From assembly GCF_004361065.1 (NCBI RefSeq), contig NZ_SELT01000005.1:1-64000 (forward strand): a DNA stretch of 64,000 bases. Reading direction: 5' to 3'. The position numbers were made by a program, and so were the translations under genes. This DNA comes from Cognatilysobacter terrigena. Lineage in GTDB: Bacteria > Pseudomonadota > Gammaproteobacteria > Xanthomonadales > Xanthomonadaceae. Below, one piece after another: positions 18,205 to 32,698 of the stretch. Every line of letters starts with the position of its first letter. The first letter of the stretch is position 1. Under the pieces are notes generated by a model. It ran no database searches. It was given only the letters and a program-made list of their open reading frames with translations, and had not been told where the DNA came from.

Positions 18205-18999
18205 TCAATGCGCGGGCGACGTGCCGGCGCCGTTCGCATTCGCGATGCCGACGAGCTCGACGTCGAACACCAGCGTCGCGTTCGGCGGGATCGGGCCACC
18301 CGGCGTACCGGTTTCGCCGTAGCCCTGCGACGCCGGAATCCACAGACGGTACTTGCTGCCGACCGGCATCAGCTGGATGCCTTCGCGCCAGCCCGGCACG
18401 ACCTGCTGCAGCGGGAGCGTCGCGGCGCCACCGTGGTCTTCCGAGCTGTCGAACTTGGTGCCGTCGAGCAGCTTGCCGGTGTAGTTCACGGTCACCTGGT
18501 CGTCGGCCTTCGGCTTCGGGCCGGTGCCCTGCGTCAGCACCTGGTACTGCAGGCCGCTCGCGGTGGTCTGCACGCCGGGCGCCTTCGCGTTCTTCGCGAA
18601 GAAGGCCTGGCCTTCCTTCGCGTTCTTGCTGGCCGCCTGCATCTGATCGGCGATGCGCTTGGCCTGCAGCTTCTGCGCGAACGCTTCACGCACCTGCTGC
18701 GCCTGCTGCTCGTTCATCAGCGGCTTGCTGCCGTCAAGCGCCGCCTTCAGGCCCTTCTCGAGCGTCGGAAGATCGATTTCGTCCTTCACCTGCTTGAGCG
18801 TGTTGCCCATGTCGAGACCGATCATGTAGCTCACGCGCGCCTTTTCGTCCTTCAGACCGGGAATGGCGTTCGGGTCCTTGCTGTTGGCCGCGGCGGTGTC
18901 GGCCTTCGGCGCGTTGGCGTCCTTGTTGCAGCCGACAGCGGTGAGCAGCGCGACGGACAGCGTGCCCAGCGCCACGAGGCGCATCGGAGAAACGTTCAT
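18205..18999 (-). CDS. Mip-like FKBP-type peptidyl-prolyl isomerase, putative lipoprotein
   Basis: 264 residues. The hydrophobic N-terminus (residues 5-23) ends at a Cys (LLTAVGC, Cys24), a lipobox-like site, so an envelope lipoprotein is likely. Residues 50-140 form the helical dimerisation region of the Mip/FkpA type, and residues 145-255 the FKBP domain (TASGLQYQVLTQGTG, VTVNYTGKLLDGTKFDSS, VVPGWREGIQLMPVGSKYRLWIP, FDVELVGI). The enzyme isomerises prolyl bonds during folding of exported proteins. A second, related FKBP gene lies 33 bases upstream on the same strand. The pair looks like an old tandem duplication. Confidence 0.94.
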   Translation of the reverse strand: MNVSPMRLVALGTLSVALLTAVGCNKDANAPKADTAAANSKDPNAIPGLKDEKARVSYMIGLDMGNTLKQVKDEIDLPTLEKGLKAALDGSKPLMNEQQAQQVREAFAQKLQAKRIADQMQAASKNAKEGQAFFAKNAKAPGVQTTASGLQYQVLTQGTGPKPKADDQVTVNYTGKLLDGTKFDSSEDHGGAATLPLQQVVPGWREGIQLMPVGSKYRLWIPASQGYGETGTPGGPIPPNATLVFDVELVGIANANGAGTSPAH

Positions 19000-19032
19000 T
19001 CGGAATCCTCTTGGAAGCGGCGCGAGCCGCGG

Positions 19033-20016
19033 TCAGGGCGAGATCGAGAGCAGTTCGACATCGAAAGTGAGTGCGGAGTTCGGACCGATCTGCTCGCCCG
19101 CACCCTTCTCACCGTACGCCAACTGCGACGGAATCCAGAAACGGTACTTCGCGCCGACCGGCATCATCGACAGGCCTTCGGTCCAGCCCGGAATCACCTG
19201 GTTGAGCATGAACTCCACCGGCTGGCCGTTCTTGTACGAGCTGTCGAACACGGTGCCGTCGAGCAGCTTGCCTTCGTAGTTCACACGGACGCGGTCGGTC
19301 GTCTTCGGACGCGCGCCCGAACCCTGGCGCAGCACCATGTACTGCAGGCCGGACGGCGTCGTGAACACGCCCTTCTTCGTCTTGTTCTCGATGAGGAATT
19401 TCTCGCCCGCTTCCTTGTTGGTGCCGGCCTGCGCCGCGCGCTTGGCTTCGATCTTCTGCTTCATCGCCGTGGTGAACTCGGTGCGCACGGCATTGCGCGT
19501 GGCTTCGTCGAGCACCGGCTCCTGACCGGCGAGAAGACCGGCAAGCGCCTGGAACACCAGCGGGAAATCGACTTCGTTCTTGATCGACGTCAGCGACGGG
19601 CCGAGGTCGGCGGCGACGAGGCGCGACACTTCGACCTTCGACACTTCCGGCACCGGGCCCTGCGTCGGCTGGCCGCGACGCGCGGCGATGCGCTGCATCA
19701 GCGCCTGGTTGAGCTTGGCAGCCTTCTCGCGATCGACCTGCGGGATCTTGCCGGCGTTGAGTTCCTCGACGCCCGCGCGGAACGCGTTGATGTCGAAGTC
19801 CGGCGCGATCGGCTTGAGCATCTGCGACAGATCGAACGCAACGACATAGCTCGCCTTCTGGCGCGGGGTGACCAGCGACTGCGCGCTGATGGTCGACGTC
19901 GACGCCGCAGCGGCCGGAGCGGGCTTGGCCGAGGCCTTCGGCGCTGGAGGAGCCGCGAACGCGACGGTGGCGGTCGAGGCGAGCAGCGCGGCGAGGCCGC
20001 GTGCGAACAGGTTCAT
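19033..20016 (-). CDS. Mip-like FKBP-type peptidyl-prolyl isomerase, periplasmic
   Basis: 327 residues. It has a cleavable signal peptide ([24 protein letters not shown]) and no lipobox, unlike its neighbour. The long helical region (about 45-220) contains two weakly related FKBP_N-type segments ([14 protein letters not shown], and [20 protein letters not shown]), so the N-terminal dimerisation part may be duplicated. The FKBP domain is about 225-325 ([56 protein letters not shown]). It should act on prolyl bonds of exported proteins. It is divergent from the YtrA operon. Confidence 0.93.
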
Positions 20017-23795: not shown

Positions 23796-25205
23796 TCACC
23801 CGCCGCCCGACATCCCCTCGCGAATCCCGCCTTGCGTCAATGACGCAGGGTCGAGGAGTCGGCGCAACTGCTCGCGCGACATGCCCGTCGCCTCGACCGC
23901 GACATCCAGCACCGGGCGCCCATCCTTGTACGCCTGCTTGGCGATCGCAGCGGCCTTCTCGTAACCGATGACCGGATTCAGTGCGGTCACGAGGATCGGA
24001 TTGCGATCCAGCGCCTCGCGCACGCGCTCGTTGCGCACCTTCAGGCCTGCGATGGTGCGGTCCGCGAGCAGGCGCGACACGTTGGACAGCAACGCGATCG
24101 AATCGAGCAGGTCGTACGCGATCAGCGGCAGCATGACATTGAGCTGGAAGTTGCCGCTCTGGCCGGCGACGGTGATCGCCACGTGGTGGCCCATCACCTG
24201 TGCGCAGACCATCGCCGTCGCTTCGGGAATCACCGGATTCACCTTGCCGGGCATGATCGAGCTGCCCGGCTGCAACGCCGGCAGTTCGATCTCGCCGAGC
24301 CCCGCCAGCGGTCCGGAATTCATCCAACGCAGGTCGTTCGCGATCTTCATGAGCGCCACGGCCAGCGTATTGAGCTGACCCGACAGTTCGACCGCGTCGT
24401 CCTGCGATGCGATGCCTTCGAAGCGATCCGCGGCGGCCTCGAACTTCACACCGGTGCGTTTCGCCAGCGCCTTCGACACCTGATCGCCGAAGCGCGGATG
24501 CGCGTTGATTCCCGTGCCGACCGCCGTGCCACCAATCGGCAGGCGGCGCAGCCGCACCAGCGCGTCCTCGATGCGCATGCGCGCCGAATCGAGCTGCGAC
24601 GCCCACGCGCCGAACTCCTGTGCGAACGTCACCGGCATGGCGTCCATCAGGTGCGTACGGCCGGTCTTCGTGACCTTGCCGAGCGAGCGGCCTTTCTTCG
24701 CGATCGTCGTCTGCAGCTGCTTGATGGCCGGCAGCAGATCGCGTGTGCAGGCGACGGCCGCCGAGACGCGGATCGCGGTCGGGATGACGTCGTTCGAGCT
24801 CTGTCCGAGATTGACGTGGTCGTTCGGATGCACGCGACGGCGCGTGTTCGACGCCACGTGCGCGATGACCTCGTTCGCATTCATGTTGCTCGACGTGCCG
24901 GAGCCGGTCTGGAACACGTCGATCGGGAAGTGCGCATTGAACTCGCCGTCGGCGACGCGTTCGGCGGCCGACGCGATCGCCTTGGCCACGGCCGGATCGA
25001 GCAGCTTCAGCCGGCCATTGACCTCCGCGGCGGACGCCTTGATCAGCCCCAACGCCTCGATGAAACCGCGCGGCATGGGGCGTCCGGAGATCGGGAAGTT
25101 GTCGACCGCCCGCTGCGTCTGCGCGCCCCAGAGCGCATCGGCCGGGACCTGCAGCTCGCCCATGCTGTCGTGCTCGATGCGGACGTTCTCGTCGTTCCGG
25201 GCCAT
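23796..25205 (-). CDS. fumC: Fumarate hydratase, class II
   Basis: 469 residues from the ATG at 25205 (MARNDENV), with an AGGAG site about 8 bases upstream. An extra 15-residue extension is possible but unlikely. It interconverts fumarate and malate in the TCA cycle without an iron-sulphur cluster. Signatures are GSGTSSNMNANEV (about residues 100-112), a THLMDAMPV block, and the family signature GSSIMPGKVNPVIPEA (about residue 317), which carries the catalytic Ser loop. Length is normal (460-470). It is divergent from purB, which belongs to the same aspartase/fumarase superfamily; the two starts are 108 bases apart. Confidence 0.97.
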   Translation of the reverse strand: MARNDENVRIEHDSMGELQVPADALWGAQTQRAVDNFPISGRPMPRGFIEALGLIKASAAEVNGRLKLLDPAVAKAIASAAERVADGEFNAHFPIDVFQTGSGTSSNMNANEVIAHVASNTRRRVHPNDHVNLGQSSNDVIPTAIRVSAAVACTRDLLPAIKQLQTTIAKKGRSLGKVTKTGRTHLMDAMPVTFAQEFGAWASQLDSARMRIEDALVRLRRLPIGGTAVGTGINAHPRFGDQVSKALAKRTGVKFEAAADRFEGIASQDDAVELSGQLNTLAVALMKIANDLRWMNSGPLAGLGEIELPALQPGSSIMPGKVNPVIPEATAMVCAQVMGHHVAITVAGQSGNFQLNVMLPLIAYDLLDSIALLSNVSRLLADRTIAGLKVRNERVREALDRNPILVTALNPVIGYEKAAAIAKQAYKDGRPVLDVAVEATGMSREQLRRLLDPASLTQGGIREGMSGGG

Positions 25206-25282
25206 CGTCGTCTCCTGTCGAAGCGGCGAGCGTACGACGCGCGGCGTCAACGCGCGTCGGGCCTGGCGGCCGCGACGGGTAA

Positions 25283-26689
<1,407 letters not shown>

Positions 26690-26690
26690 C

Positions 26691-27563
26691 GTGCGCGTCC
26701 TCGCCGTCGCGCTGCTCCTGGCCTTCGTCATGGCGCCCGCGAGCGCGGCGACAAAGGCGAAACCGAACCGCTGTGCAGACGACGCCGGCTGGAACGATCG
26801 CGCCGTGCCGCGCCACGTGTACGGCAACACGTGGTACGTCGGCACCTGCGGCATCAGCGCACTGCTCGTGACGTCGAAGGCCGGCCATGTCCTCATCGAT
26901 GCCGGGACCGAGGACGCCGCGTCGCAGGTGGAAGCGAACATCCGCACGCTCGGCTTCCGCGTGCAGGACATCCGCGCGATCGTCGGCTCGCACGCGCATG
27001 GCGACCACGCGGGCGGGCTGGCACAGCTGCAGAAGGCCTCGAGCGCGCCCGTGTATGCACGTGCGGCGGCGCTGTCCGTGCTGTCGACGGGCAAAGCCGA
27101 CCGCAGCGATCCGCAGCTGCTCGCACTCAAGCCGTTTCCGGCGGTCGCGAAGCTCGAACCCATCGAGGACGGCGGCCACGTCCGCGGTGGTCCGATCGAC
27201 CTTGTCGCCCACGCCACGCCCGGGCACACGCCGGGTGGCAGCAGCTGGACGTGGCGCGAATGCGAGAACGGTCGCTGCGTCGACATGGCGTACGTCGACA
27301 GCCTCACCGCGGTGTCGGACGACGTCTACCGCTATTCCGACGATGCGGCGTACCTCGCGACATTCCGCAACACGCTCGACGCCGTCGCAAAACTGCCTTG
27401 CGACGTACTGGTTACGCCCCATCCGTCCGCAAGCGATCTGTGGGCGCGCCTGCCGCCCGAGTCGTCCAAGCCGCTGATCGACGCGACTGCATGCCGCGCT
27501 TACGCCGAGTCCGCCACGCTGCGCCTCGACGCGCGCCTCGCGAAGGAGGCGAAAGCCAAATGA
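26691..27563 (+). CDS. Subclass B3 metallo-beta-lactamase
   Basis: 290 residues from a GTG at 26691, one base after purB. The signal peptide is [19 protein letters not shown] (cleavage near residue 19), so the enzyme is periplasmic. Zinc ligands are His101, His103, Asp105 and His106 ([10 protein letters not shown]), His179 (TPGHTPGG) and His244 (TPHPSASD). This is the B3 set: Asp120 and His121 present, and a Ser where B1 enzymes have Cys221 ([11 protein letters not shown]). Such enzymes hydrolyse penicillins, cephalosporins and carbapenems, and chromosomal copies are common in Lysobacter and Stenotrophomonas relatives. Activity and spectrum cannot be read from sequence. No mobile element flanks it. 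Its stop overlaps roxA by ATGA. Confidence 0.9.
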
Positions 27564-28735
27564 TCGAGATCGACGCACGCGGCAAGCCGCCGCTCGGCAT
27601 GACGCCGGCGCGTTTCCTGCGCGAGTTCTGGCAGAAGAAGCCTCTGCTGATCCGCAACGCGTTCCCGGATTTCGTCACGCCGATCGAGGCCGAGGATCTT
27701 GCGGGACTCGCCTGCGAGGAGTTCGCGCTGTCGCGCATCATCGAACACGACCGCGCCACCGACCGCTACACGCTGCGCACCGGACCGTTCGCCGAGGACG
27801 AGTTTCCCGGCATGCCGGACCACGACTGGACACTGCTCGTGCAGGACGTCGACAAATGGGATGCGGACGTCGCGGCGATCCTGCCGCGCTTCGACTTCCT
27901 GCCGCGCTGGCGCGTCGACGACGTCATGATCTCCTTCGCGGCCACCGGCGGCTCCGTCGGTGCGCATGTCGACCAGTACGACGTGTTCCTGCTGCAGGCC
28001 AAGGGCCACCGCCGCTGGCAGATCGACGCGTCGGCGAATCCACCGCTCGCGTTCCGCGCCGACGCTGAGATCAAGCTGCTGCGCGAGTTCACGCCGACGC
28101 ACGACTGGGTGCTCGGACCGGGCGACATGCTGTATCTCCCGCCCGGCGTGCCGCATCACGGCGTGGCGGAAGATCCGTGCCTCACGTTTTCGATCGGCAT
28201 GCGCGCACCGTCTGCGGCCGAACTGCTCGGCGATTTCGTCGACACGCTGGCCGCCGATGCGGACGAGGCGATGCGCTATGCCGATCCCGATCTGGCGCCG
28301 GCGAAAGACACGTTCGAGATCGACGACGCCGCGATGTCGCGCGCGATCGAGGCGCTGAACGCGCTGCGCATGAACGATGCAGACCGCCTGTCCCACTGGT
28401 TCGGCCGTTTCATCACGGCGTATCGCAGCAGCGGAATCGTGGCCGCGCCCGGCACCGTCATCGACCGCGCGACGATCGAGCAGGCGCTCAACGAAGGCCA
28501 GACGCTGCATCGCAATCCGTTCTCGCGCATCGCATGGCGCAAGGTCACGCGCGGCGCGCTGCTGTTCATCGCCGGGCAGTCGTTCGCGATGACAGTCGCG
28601 GACGCGAAGCGCGTCGCTGCGTCGGCGGAAATCGATATCGGCGTCTACGCACGACTGGGCGACGCCGCTCGCGAAGCGGTCGCCGAGCTCGCGGCGGGCG
28701 GCCACTATCAGCTGGCTGGAGACGAAGAGGAATGA
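27560..28735 (+). CDS. roxA: RoxA-type ribosomal protein oxygenase (JmjC/cupin, YcfD family)
   Basis: 391 residues from the ATG at 27560, inside the ATGA overlap with the lactamase gene. It belongs to the 2-oxoglutarate- and Fe(II)-dependent oxygenases that hydroxylate an arginine of 50S protein L16 in E. coli. Visible features are [13 protein letters not shown] (24-36), the iron ligands His136 and Asp138 ([10 protein letters not shown]) and a C-terminal His in PGVPHHG (199/200), and GHRRWQID as the co-substrate region. A winged-helix dimerisation part follows (about 270-390). Length and motif spacing match YcfD. It overlaps the GNAT gene by ATGA. Confidence 0.92.
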
Positions 28736-29628
28736 GCGACTTCCGCGTCGAACGCGTCGACTACGGCACCGCCCTGCCCGACCTGCGGGCGATACGCGAC
28801 GTGGTGTTCGTGCAGGAACAGCGCGTACCCGTCGAGATCGAACGCGACGCGCTCGACGCGGCCTGCACGCACGTCCTCGCACGCGACGCCGAAGGCCGGC
28901 CGATCGGCACGGGCCGTCTCGCGCCGAACGGCAAGATCGGGCGCATGGCCGTGCTGGGCGACTGGCGCGGACGCGGCGTCGGGCGCGCGATGTTGCTGCA
29001 ACTGCTCGACGCCGCGCGCGAGTCGGGCCTGAGCGACGTCATGCTGCACGCGCAGGTCGACGCCGAACGCTTCTACGCCGCCGATGGCTTCCTGCCCATC
29101 GGCGAGCGGTTCGAGGAAGCGGGCATCGTCCATCAGGAAATGCATCGCACGCTCGACCGGCCGGCGCCGGTCGACAACGCCGCGCAGGCGATCGCGGCGG
29201 TCGTGGGCATCGCGACGAACACGCGTCGCGCCATGGTGGTCTACAGCCGCGAGATGGATCCGGGCCTGCTGGACCAGACCGACGTCATCACCGCCCTGCG
29301 TCGCGTAGCGACGCGCGGCGGGGAGATCCGCCTGCTGCTGCAGGACGTCGAAGCGCCGCAGCGCGCGCATGCGCCGCTGATCGCGATCGCCCAGCGGCTG
29401 TCGTCGGCCTTCTCGATCCGCGTGATCGACGAGCCGGTCGACCTCACCTACCCGTCCGCCTTCGTCGCCAACGATACGGGCGGCTGGTACTTCCGCCCGC
29501 TGGGCCATCGCGTCGACGGCGAAACGCAGCTCGATGGCGCCGCCCGCGTCCGGCAGCTGCGGACCGTGTTCGACAGCGCGTGGGAGCGCGCGCGACCGGC
29601 GACCGAGCTCCGGGCGCTCGGGATCTGA
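28732..29628 (+). CDS. GNAT N-acetyltransferase with an additional C-terminal domain
   Basis: 298 residues from the ATG at 28732. Residues 1-145 form a GNAT domain: RDVVFVQEQRVPVEIERD, GRLAPNGKIGRMAVLGDWRGRGVGRAML (acetyl-CoA loop), and FYAADGFLPIGERFEEAGI. Residues 160-290 form a second domain (ATNTRRAMVVYSREMDPGLLD, IRLLLQDVEAPQRAHAPLI, WYFRPLGHRVDGETQLD) that resembles phospholipase D-fold proteins but lacks a clear HKD motif. Acceptor unknown. The ATGA overlap ties it to roxA, so a joint role is possible but unproven. Confidence 0.82.
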   Translation: MSDFRVERVDYGTALPDLRAIRDVVFVQEQRVPVEIERDALDAACTHVLARDAEGRPIGTGRLAPNGKIGRMAVLGDWRGRGVGRAMLLQLLDAARESGLSDVMLHAQVDAERFYAADGFLPIGERFEEAGIVHQEMHRTLDRPAPVDNAAQAIAAVVGIATNTRRAMVVYSREMDPGLLDQTDVITALRRVATRGGEIRLLLQDVEAPQRAHAPLIAIAQRLSSAFSIRVIDEPVDLTYPSAFVANDTGGWYFRPLGHRVDGETQLDGAARVRQLRTVFDSAWERARPATELRALGI

Positions 29629-29782
29629 CGCCCCACGCCGCCGCAATCCTCGAGCAGCCGGCCTCGCAAGTGGCACCAGGAATGTCCGCGCTTCTGCAGC
29701 GATCTGCGCCCATTCGATGCGGAAGCCATCCGCAAGGGCCGATTCACCACACCGTTTCGGGCGCGATGCGCCCCCGTCCGGC

Positions 29783-29788
29783 TATAAT
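29783..29788 (+). promoter_or_regulatory. -10 element of the sucA operon
   Basis: A perfect TATAAT in a GC-rich setting, 84 bases before the GTG start of sucA. No -35 at a standard 16-18-base spacing is convincing, so strength or dependence on an activator is open. Confidence 0.6.
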
Positions 29789-29866
29789 CCCGCGTCTTTC
29801 GCGCCCGATCGCGATATGCGGCGCGACACCCCCAATTTCCCCGCCGAGCCAGACGCCACCGCCATC

Positions 29867-32698
29867 GTGGACAGCCTTCTGAAGCAGTTTGCCCAGACCT
29901 CCCAACTCGGCGCGAACGCCGCCTACGTCGAGGATCTGTACGAGCAGTACCTGGTCGCACCGGACAGCGTCGACCCGAAATGGAAGGCCTACTTCGATGG
30001 CGTGAAGAGCGGCTCGACGAACGAGGTGCCGCATTCCGCGGTGCTCGAGTCGATCGCCGAGGCCGGTCGCCAGGCCGCACGCGGCCTCGTGGCGGGCGGC
30101 GGCACCGAAGCCGGTGACGAGCGTCAGCGCGCCGTCGGCAAGCTGATCATCGCCTACCGCTCGCGTGGTCATCTGGCCGCCAATCTCGACCCGCTCGGCC
30201 TCGAGAAGATGCCGCCGGCGCCCGACCTCGAACTCGCCTTCCACGGTCTGTCCGAGAAGGACCTGTCCGTCGAATTCAGCACCGGCGGCGTGGGCGGCAA
30301 GGACCGCATGAAGCTCGGCGACCTCGTCGACCTGCTCAAGCGCACCTACACCGGCACCGTCGGCGCCGAGTTCATGCACATCGCCGAGTCGGACCAGCGC
30401 CGCTGGATCTACGAGCGCATGGAAAAGGCCGGCGGCCGTTACGCGCGGAGCGAGGACGACCGCAAGCGCGTTCTCGAACGCCTCACCGCCGCAGACGGCC
30501 TGGAGCGCTACCTCGGCACCAAGTACGTCGGCCAGAAGCGCTTCTCGCTCGAAGGCGGCGACTCGCTGATCCCGCTGCTCGACGACATGGTCCGTCGCGC
30601 CGGCACGCAGGACGCCAAGGAAGTCGTGATGGGCATGGCCCACCGCGGCCGCCTCAACGTGCTGGTCAACACGCTCGGCAAGCCGCCGCGGGACCTGTTC
30701 AACGAGTTCGAAGGCAAGTTCGAACACGTGCACAGCGACCTCGCCCACCAGGGCGACGTGAAGTACCACATGGGCTTCTCCGCCGACGTCGCCACGCCCG
30801 GCGGCCCGGTGCACCTTGCGCTCGCGTTCAATCCGTCGCACCTCGAGATCGTCGATCCGGTGGTCGCGGGCAGCGCGCGTTCGCGCCAGACGCGTCGCGG
30901 CGACGAAGGCCGTCGCCAGGTGCTGCCGGTGCTGATGCACGGCGACGCCGCGTTCGCCGGCCAGGGCGTGGTGATGGAGCTGTTCCAGATGTCGCAGGCC
31001 CGCGGTTTCGCGGTCGGCGGCACGGTGCACATCGTCATCAACAACCAGGTCGGCTTCACGACGAGCGAGCGCCAGGACGCGCGTTCGACGCTGTACTGCA
31101 CCGACGTCTCGAAGATGGTCGGCGCGCCGGTGCTGCACGTGAACGGCGACGACCCGGATGCCGTGCTGTTCTGCGGCGAGCTCGCGCTCGATTTCCGCAA
31201 TACGTTCAACAAAGACGTCGTCATCGACCTCGTCTGCTACCGCCGCCACGGCCACAACGAGGCCGACGAGCCGGCGGCGACGCAGCCGCTGATGTACCAG
31301 GTGATCCGCAAGCACGCGACGCCGCGCGAGCTGTACGCCAAGCGCCTCGTCGCCGAGAACGTGATCACCGAGGCCGACGCGCAGGCGATGGTCGACGCCT
31401 ACCGCGCGAAGATGGATGCGGGCGAAGTCACCGCGGACGTCGTCGAGGTCAAGCCCGACGCGTTCACGCCGGACTGGTCGCCCTTCCTCACCGGCAAGCT
31501 GTCGGATCCGGTGGACACGAGGTTCGATCGCACCAAGCTCGTCGAGCTCGCGAAGTCGATCAACAGCGTGCCGGATCGCATCACTCTGCATCCGCGCGTC
31601 GCCAAGATCTACGAAGACCGCCGCAAGATGACCGCTGGCGAGCAGCCGGGCGACTGGGGCTTCGCGGAGAACCTCGCCTACGCCACGCTGCTGAGCGAAG
31701 GCTACAAGTTGCGCCTGGTCGGCCAGGACTGTGGCCGCGGCACGTTCTTCCACCGCCACGCGATCCTCCACGACCAGAAGACGGACGAGTACTACCTGCC
31801 GCTGCGAGAGCTGGTACCGAATCCAGCGGACGTCGCCGTGATCGACTCGCTGCTCAGCGAGGAAGCGGTGATGGCGTTCGAGTACGGCTATTCCACGGCC
31901 GATCCAATGACGCTCGACATCTGGGAAGGCCAGTTCGGCGACTTCGCGAACGGCGCGCAGGTGGTGATCGACCAGTTCCTGTCGTCGGGCGAAGCGAAGT
32001 GGGGCCGCCTCTGCGGTCTCGCGCTGTACCTGCCGCATGGTTACGAAGGCCAGGGCCCGGAGCACAGCTCGGCGCGCCTGGAGCGCTACCTGCAGTTGTG
32101 CGCGCTCGACAACATGATCGTCTGCACGCCGACGACGCCGGCGCAGGACTACCACATGATCCGCCGGCAGATGCGCATGACCACGCGCAAGCCGCTGGTG
32201 GTGATGACGCCGAAGTCGCTGCTGCGCCACAAGCTCGCGGTGTCGACGCTGGACGAACTCGCGAACGGCGAATTCCAGAAGCTGATCCCGGACAGCGTGA
32301 CCACGCCGAAGAAGGCGAAGCGCGTCGTCGTCTGCGGCGGCAAGGTCTACTACGACCTGCTGGAAGACATGCAGAAGCGCGGCGCCGACGATGTCGCGCT
32401 CATCCGCGTGGAGCAGCTCTATCCGTTCCCGCGCGCCGAGCTGAAGGCCGAACTCGCGAAGTATTCGACCAAGGACGTGGTGTGGTGCCAGGAAGAGCCC
32501 ATGAACCAGGGCGCGTGGTACCAGATCCGTCATCACCTCGTTGCCTGCCTCGGCGCGAAGCAGTCGATCCACTACGCGGGTCGTTCGCGCTCGCCGTCGC
32601 CGGCCGCCGGCCACTTCGCCGACCACGTGCGCGAACAGCAGCAGCTGATCGCCGACGCATTGGTCAATCCGCTCAATGGCGAGGTGTCGGAGGAGTAA
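29867..32698 (+). CDS. sucA: 2-oxoglutarate dehydrogenase E1 component
   Basis: 943 residues from the GTG at 29867 ([15 protein letters not shown]). Xanthomonad SucA proteins are of about this length and start at the equivalent position; an ATG at 29816 in the same frame is the alternative. The thiamine-dependent enzyme decarboxylates 2-oxoglutarate and reductively succinylates the E2 lipoyl group. Signatures include [32 protein letters not shown], the thiamine-binding [33 protein letters not shown], and the transketolase-like [13 protein letters not shown] and [21 protein letters not shown]. It heads the sucA-sucB-lpd operon. Confidence 0.96.

Follow-up and report, generated by a model that had tools for sequence, protein, structure and literature searches.

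The window, which is the whole 64,000-nt stretch of Cognatilysobacter terrigena DNA that was analysed, contains a closely packed row of four genes on the plus strand in which a subclass B3 metallo-beta-lactamase gene lies between purB and roxA. The likely head of the row is purB, and a gene on either side marks its limits. The features were as follows.

23796..25250, minus strand: fumC-like lyase, left flank (PF00206, PF10415)
25313..26689, plus strand: purB, adenylosuccinate lyase (NF006764, 726.9 bits against a cut-off of 446)
26691..27563, plus strand: subclass B3 metallo-beta-lactamase, AIM/PJM-like, 290 aa, GTG start (NF033105)
26691..26747, plus strand: putative Sec signal peptide, residues 1-19, without a lipobox (N-terminus read by eye)
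26991..27008, plus strand: zinc-ligand motif HAHGDH (H101, H103, D105, H106), conserved in all 62 site proteins aligned
27225..27227, plus strand: zinc ligand H179, conserved in all 62 site proteins aligned
27420..27422, plus strand: zinc ligand H244, conserved in all 62 site proteins aligned
27543..27549, plus strand: Shine-Dalgarno-like AAGGAGG of roxA, inside the lactamase gene and 10 nt before the roxA ATG
27560..28735, plus strand: roxA, JmjC ribosomal-oxygenase-like (PF08007, 139.7 bits; PF20514, 59.2 bits)
28732..29628, plus strand: GNAT acetyltransferase with C-terminal DUF7931 (PF25559, 175.4 bits; PF13673, 64.1 bits)
29816..32698, plus strand: sucA-like protein, right flank

NCBIfam and Pfam profile matches agreed with the purB, B3 lactamase, roxA and GNAT domains that a sequence-only reading of this DNA had named, and the roxA product had both the JmjC domain and the ROXA-like winged helix of RoxA/YcfD proteins in Pfam. 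The same reading had described a single base between purB and the lactamase gene followed by two ATGA overlaps, which the coordinates and the junction letters bore out (TGA-C-GTG at purB/lactamase, ATGA at lactamase/roxA and again at roxA/GNAT). No Shine-Dalgarno match was found by scan within 20 nt upstream of the lactamase GTG. Among site loci in named genomes, where "site" means that purB lies upstream on the same strand within the stretch examined, the opposite-strand fumC-like neighbour beside purB was matched in 58 of 59. The gene at 29816..32698, which we take to be sucA-like, had a downstream match in 55 of the 59, and in the remaining four the stretch or contig may end earlier. Elsewhere in the window, two genes for FKBP-type peptidyl-prolyl isomerases stand in tandem at 18205-20016.

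The lactamase scored 301.1 bits against the subclass B3 model NF033105, above its cut-off of 240. The best named NCBIfam family was PJM (NF040874) at 381.7 bits, below the cut-off of 630, and the AIM model (NF000439) gave 373.3 bits, below its cut-off of 675; by NCBIfam cut-offs the protein is thus a member of neither family. AIM-1 was the top PDB sequence match (2.3e-109) and also the top Foldseek match of a predicted model with a mean pLDDT of 92.7 (TM 0.96 on target, rmsd 1.1 A), with SMB-1, MIM-1 and L1 also among the top matches, which places the predicted model in the B3 fold. All six zinc ligands claimed by the earlier reading were present in the window protein as in each of the 62 aligned site proteins, and form the HHH/DHH arrangement by which B3 sites are named in the part of PMC10318434 available. 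Residues H101, H103, D105, H106, H179 and H244 presumably correspond to BBL positions 116, 118, 120, 121, 196 and 263. Six cysteines were likewise invariant in 62 of 62 site proteins. Hydrolysis of beta-lactams by the window enzyme would be expected from these features.

The N-terminus appeared Sec-like by eye, in keeping with the signal peptide proposed earlier, which is retained as putative, and the lipobox pattern had no match in the window lactamase. A lipobox-like N-terminal pattern was found, as a pattern only, in 17 of the 62 site lactamases (L031, L032, L040, L065, L071, L073, L074, L079, L082, L083, L090, L091, L092, L096, L100, L101 and L103), which suggests that B3 enzymes at these loci may be membrane-anchored. 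In comparisons with four congeners dN/dS was 0.17-0.32 for the lactamase, 0.08-0.15 for purB and 0.09-0.25 for roxA, values that indicate a lactamase under purifying selection and less constrained than purB and roxA.

The surroundings of the gene in relatives had been proposed as a check, and the purB-lactamase-roxA order recurred in several genera. A match to the lactamase at E <= 0.001 was present in 50 of 60 related genomes; eight of the 60, the source genome included, encoded an AIM-like protein (55-100% identity), and in all eight the gene lay between purB and roxA. Within the window's genus, G002, G005, G006 and G007 carried a lactamase gene between purB and roxA, G001 and G004 had purB and roxA without it, and a purB or roxA match was not found in G003. 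A scan of named genomes retained 80 of 246 relatives. In 59 of the 80 a same-strand purB lay at most 2.2 kb upstream; roxA was present as well in 57 of them, and the genera of the 59 included Lysobacter, Pseudoxanthomonas, Luteimonas, Thermomonas, Silanimonas and Dokdonella. The other 21 had no purB in the examined stretch, six of them being from Stenotrophomonas or Xanthomonas. In a sample of 198 genomes from the family (completeness at least 95), AIM-like copies were separated from other B3 lactamases at a boundary of 47% identity set in this analysis, all AIM-like copies having at least 48%. Forty-six of the 198 genomes carried an AIM-like copy, at least 41 of the 46 downstream of purB, which amounts to all 41 that could be checked. 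The neighbourhood of purB and roxA itself is older than the family, as the arrangement was seen in several families of the order. No title or abstract describing this locus was found in a literature search of partial coverage, with subscription journals mostly outside it. Outside the family, Azospirillum and Nitrospirillum loci (L050, L051, L053 and L064) encoded AIM-like enzymes of 56-57% identity without purB nearby, and in the tree these were grouped together with site copies from Lysobacter, a placement that would suit horizontal transfer.

Three gene orders were distinguished among 60 loci that had purB, a lactamase and roxA, namely purB-MBL-roxA (27), purB-VOC-MBL-roxA (24) and purB-MBL-VOC-roxA (9), where MBL is the lactamase. 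The coupling to a ribosomal oxygenase, which had been called unusual, did not prove so, since the lactamase and roxA genes overlapped by exactly 4 nt in 34 of the 60 loci (ATGA in 32 and GTGA in two). By order the overlap was present in 22 of 27, 12 of 24 and none of nine loci, respectively. Overlaps of 4 nt are common in bacterial operons, and that between lactamase and roxA is not singular because the roxA/GNAT pair overlaps likewise in 38 of 46 loci, the 14 of 60 without a GNAT match near its start being omitted from this measurement. Coupling to roxA is therefore a trait of the family. The upstream side was more variable. No gap from purB to the lactamase exceeded 60 nt in 35 of 60 loci, a gap above 60 nt occurred somewhere in the remaining 25, and in 23 of the 60 no gap from purB through to roxA exceeded that length. 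The window and its four congeners were uniformly tight, with -1 to +1 nt between purB and lactamase and -4 nt between lactamase and roxA. Starts were chosen by rule, which may make some junction distances wrong by a few codons; two distance measurements disagree for loci without a lactamase. Loci L001 and L003-L007, which repeat the window or named genomes, were omitted from the trees, the Shine-Dalgarno scan, the alignment counts and the junction distances.

The VOC gene (glyoxalase/bleomycin-resistance fold) encodes 132 residues in Pseudoxanthomonas mexicana (L036:5597-5995; PF18029, 47.9 bits) and was also found in the purB-roxA interval of 39 other loci, on either side of the lactamase or alone. 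The source genome had no VOC match in a search made jointly with 13 other genomes; nine of the 14 were matched, eight of them strongly within the purB-roxA interval and the ninth weakly at another place. PF00144 had three matches in the source genome. Small ORFs for probably secreted proteins with an LTDPASG-type motif were observed in the purB-roxA junction of L042, L057, L077, L115 and L120. A clustering of the gap ORFs was dominated by shadow ORFs, and the ORFs were then listed interval by interval.

The same junction houses the P. mexicana relative of the hospital resistance enzyme AIM-1, and also PJM, a link absent from the earlier reading. The P. mexicana lactamase (L036) was 96.5% identical to AIM-1 over 283 aa and passed the blaAIM cut-off (699.4 bits against 675), and the P. 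japonensis protein (L038) passed that of blaPJM (644.6 bits against 630). AIM-1 and the window lactamase are alike in the B3 fold, the six ligands and the six cysteines, and are 61% identical over 284 aa. In P. mexicana the AIM gene occupies the purB-roxA junction as the window gene does, but the layout in strain DSM 17121 differs in that a VOC gene separates purB from the lactamase, and roxA follows the lactamase after 85 nt without overlap (purB, 20 nt, VOC, ATGA overlap, lactamase, 85 nt, roxA). PJM-1 of P. japonensis lies at the same locus as the window lactamase, L038 differing by a VOC gene. The L1-type enzymes of Lysobacteraceae share the B3 subclass and a chromosomal position with the window lactamase, although their identity to it is only 35-42% (L018-L030). 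More distant B3 copies, L1-type and others, were not beside purB in any of the 18 checked, and four of the six AIM cysteines were not conserved in 22 more distant B3 rows. Five of these other B3 proteins were tested against named families; three scored best with L1 (381-391 bits, below its cut-off of 560) and above the subclass B3 cut-off, THIN was the best family for a fourth, and CAU for the fifth.

AIM-1 has been traced to P. mexicana (Amsalu et al. 2021, PMC8767344). The portion of that paper available describes ISCR15 flanking AIM-1 in P. aeruginosa, a ribosome-binding site and 37 downstream nucleotides shared between AIM-1 and P. mexicana, and an almost sixfold rise of AIM-1 expression in P. 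aeruginosa with imipenem. A word search of its main text returned none of purB, adenylosuccinate and cupin. What the present analysis adds to that paper is the position of the native AIM gene inside a packed row, and a captured gene would therefore have needed a borrowed promoter.

Twenty-four family loci without an AIM-like copy had purB and roxA on one contig among 60 relatives, and 20 were examined, four with gaps below 80 nt (G016, G018, G025 and G029) being left out. Seven of the 20 were purB-VOC-roxA and 13 purB-roxA, several with other genes in between. On a host tree of purB plus roxA from 78 loci, which used 58 of the 60 lactamase loci after omission of two with a short purB or roxA, lactamase presence needed nine changes (shuffled mean 17.9), at least six of them forced by starred branches. 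On the lactamase tree the 62 site rows did not form one clade and needed seven changes (shuffled mean 34.0, none of 500 shuffles as low), at least four forced by starred branches. The starred group that holds the window lactamase consists of five site rows, all from its own genus; a 38-row group that also holds AIM-1 had a support of only 80, and all trees were quick trees. Distances in the lactamase and purB+roxA trees were correlated across 58 loci (rho 0.58, none of 500 shuffles as high). Presence is patchy and the site rows are not a clade, and therefore loss, re-gain or exchange has occurred. The pattern in these trees fits a gene that has long been resident, was lost repeatedly and was exchanged to some extent, and re-gain at the same site is possible.

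A recent acquisition that by chance landed tightly between purB and roxA is extremely unlikely. It could draw on the related genes without purB nearby, also in Alphaproteobacteria, and on the 152 of 198 family genomes without an AIM-like copy. Against it stand the recurrence of the site across several genera, a 4-nt overlap kept by 34 of the 60 loci, and junctions that the window shares with all four gene-carrying congeners despite proteins only 71-84% identical to the window lactamase. Composition also matched, with a lactamase GC3 of 0.859 against 0.859-0.909 in five neighbours. No transposase, integrase or phage family was found in a Pfam scan of 24 proteins from among those of the window (E <= 0.001), in line with the earlier claim that no mobile DNA lies near, and ARAGORN found no tRNA in the window. 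Recent acquisition was rejected on synteny, composition and divergence, and the window lactamase probably belongs, as a resident gene, to the AIM/PJM lineage at the chromosomal place typical of it. The view of a resident, non-acquired gene is thus upheld by conserved synteny, matching GC3, purifying selection and the same place in all 41 checkable family carriers. In a plasmid collection 16 records held a relative, all below 60% identity, the best being two LMB-1 plasmids at 46%.

The observations are probably best explained by an intrinsic chromosomal AIM/PJM-like B3 lactamase of the Lysobacteraceae purB-roxA junction, to which steps of expression, hydrolysis and capture may be added. A shared transcript of the row would begin upstream of purB or inside it, and translation of the lactamase would proceed by termination-reinitiation at a modest, steady rate, which is proposed because no Shine-Dalgarno site is visible and the start lies 1 nt past the purB stop. 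Housekeeping expression driven by purB is plausible for the window gene, but a fixed link to purB is weakened across the family because 25 of 60 loci have more than 60 nt between purB and the lactamase. That the lactamase and roxA are instead expressed from their own promoter, inside purB or just upstream, with purB contributing little, is somewhat unlikely. Such a promoter would suit six loci (L054, L062, L063, L067, L071 and L072) in which the lactamase/roxA overlap was kept with purB 0.9-2.1 kb distant, an opposite-strand GST-like ORF, recognised by eye, intervening in five of the six. The window and four congeners leave no intergenic space for it, and a sigma-70 promoter scan of 25000-30000 found no sites where 0.3 were expected, a result of little weight in GC-rich DNA. 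In the favoured explanation the exported di-zinc enzyme would hydrolyse beta-lactams from soil or water neighbours, and capture by ISCR15, as for AIM-1 in P. aeruginosa, would have left the operon promoter behind, so that a promoter would be needed from the new surroundings. The earlier description as not inducible is unsafe for the family because AIM-1 rises with imipenem, and AIM-like kinetics may not carry over to the window enzyme because it scores far below the AIM and PJM cut-offs.

A B3-fold hydrolase whose native task is something other than drug resistance, such as a cell-wall or another lactam/lactone reaction, would account for residence among housekeeping genes, and is in our judgement quite unlikely. 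The long residence speaks for it, as does the remark in the available part of PMC8767344 that the native function is hard to guess. The canonical HHH/DHH site speaks against it, as does the nearest characterised enzyme, AIM-1, a highly efficient beta-lactamase according to the part of PMC10318434 available. Further in its favour is the distribution in the family sample, where 46 of the 198 genomes had an AIM-like copy, 80 had only distant B3 copies (34-46% identity) and 72 had none at E <= 1e-20. AIM-like and other B3 lactamases seldom occurred in one genome, with both in only three of the 46 AIM-like carriers (G023, G112 and G179) against 19 expected if independent, a contrast that is inflated as kinship was ignored. 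Among the 20 genomes of genus g16, 15 had AIM-like copies, five had others, and none had both or neither; among the 44 of g28 the counts were eight AIM-like, 24 other, none both and 12 neither. A wider proposal, which we hold to be unlikely, is that AIM-type lactamases have long belonged to a housekeeping operon of the Lysobacteraceae, purB-[VOC]-bla-roxA-GNAT, with a constitutive native periplasmic task in which L1-type or other B3 enzymes can replace them, so that genomes would seldom keep both types. AIM-1 would then be an operon gene that ISCR15 excised from the VOC gene end onward and that now relies on a borrowed promoter for its expression.

The intrinsic lactamase of the purB-roxA junction is an ordinary enzyme; what is informative is the locus, where a lineage mobilised in the clinic has its conserved home. 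The lineage from which AIM-1, a very efficient carbapenemase, arose is thereby assigned to one conserved chromosomal locus, and this AIM/PJM home, common to many soil and water bacteria, offers a concrete place for finding further reservoir genes. The locus also gives a testable account of how the gene may be expressed natively and of what a capturing mobile element must supply.
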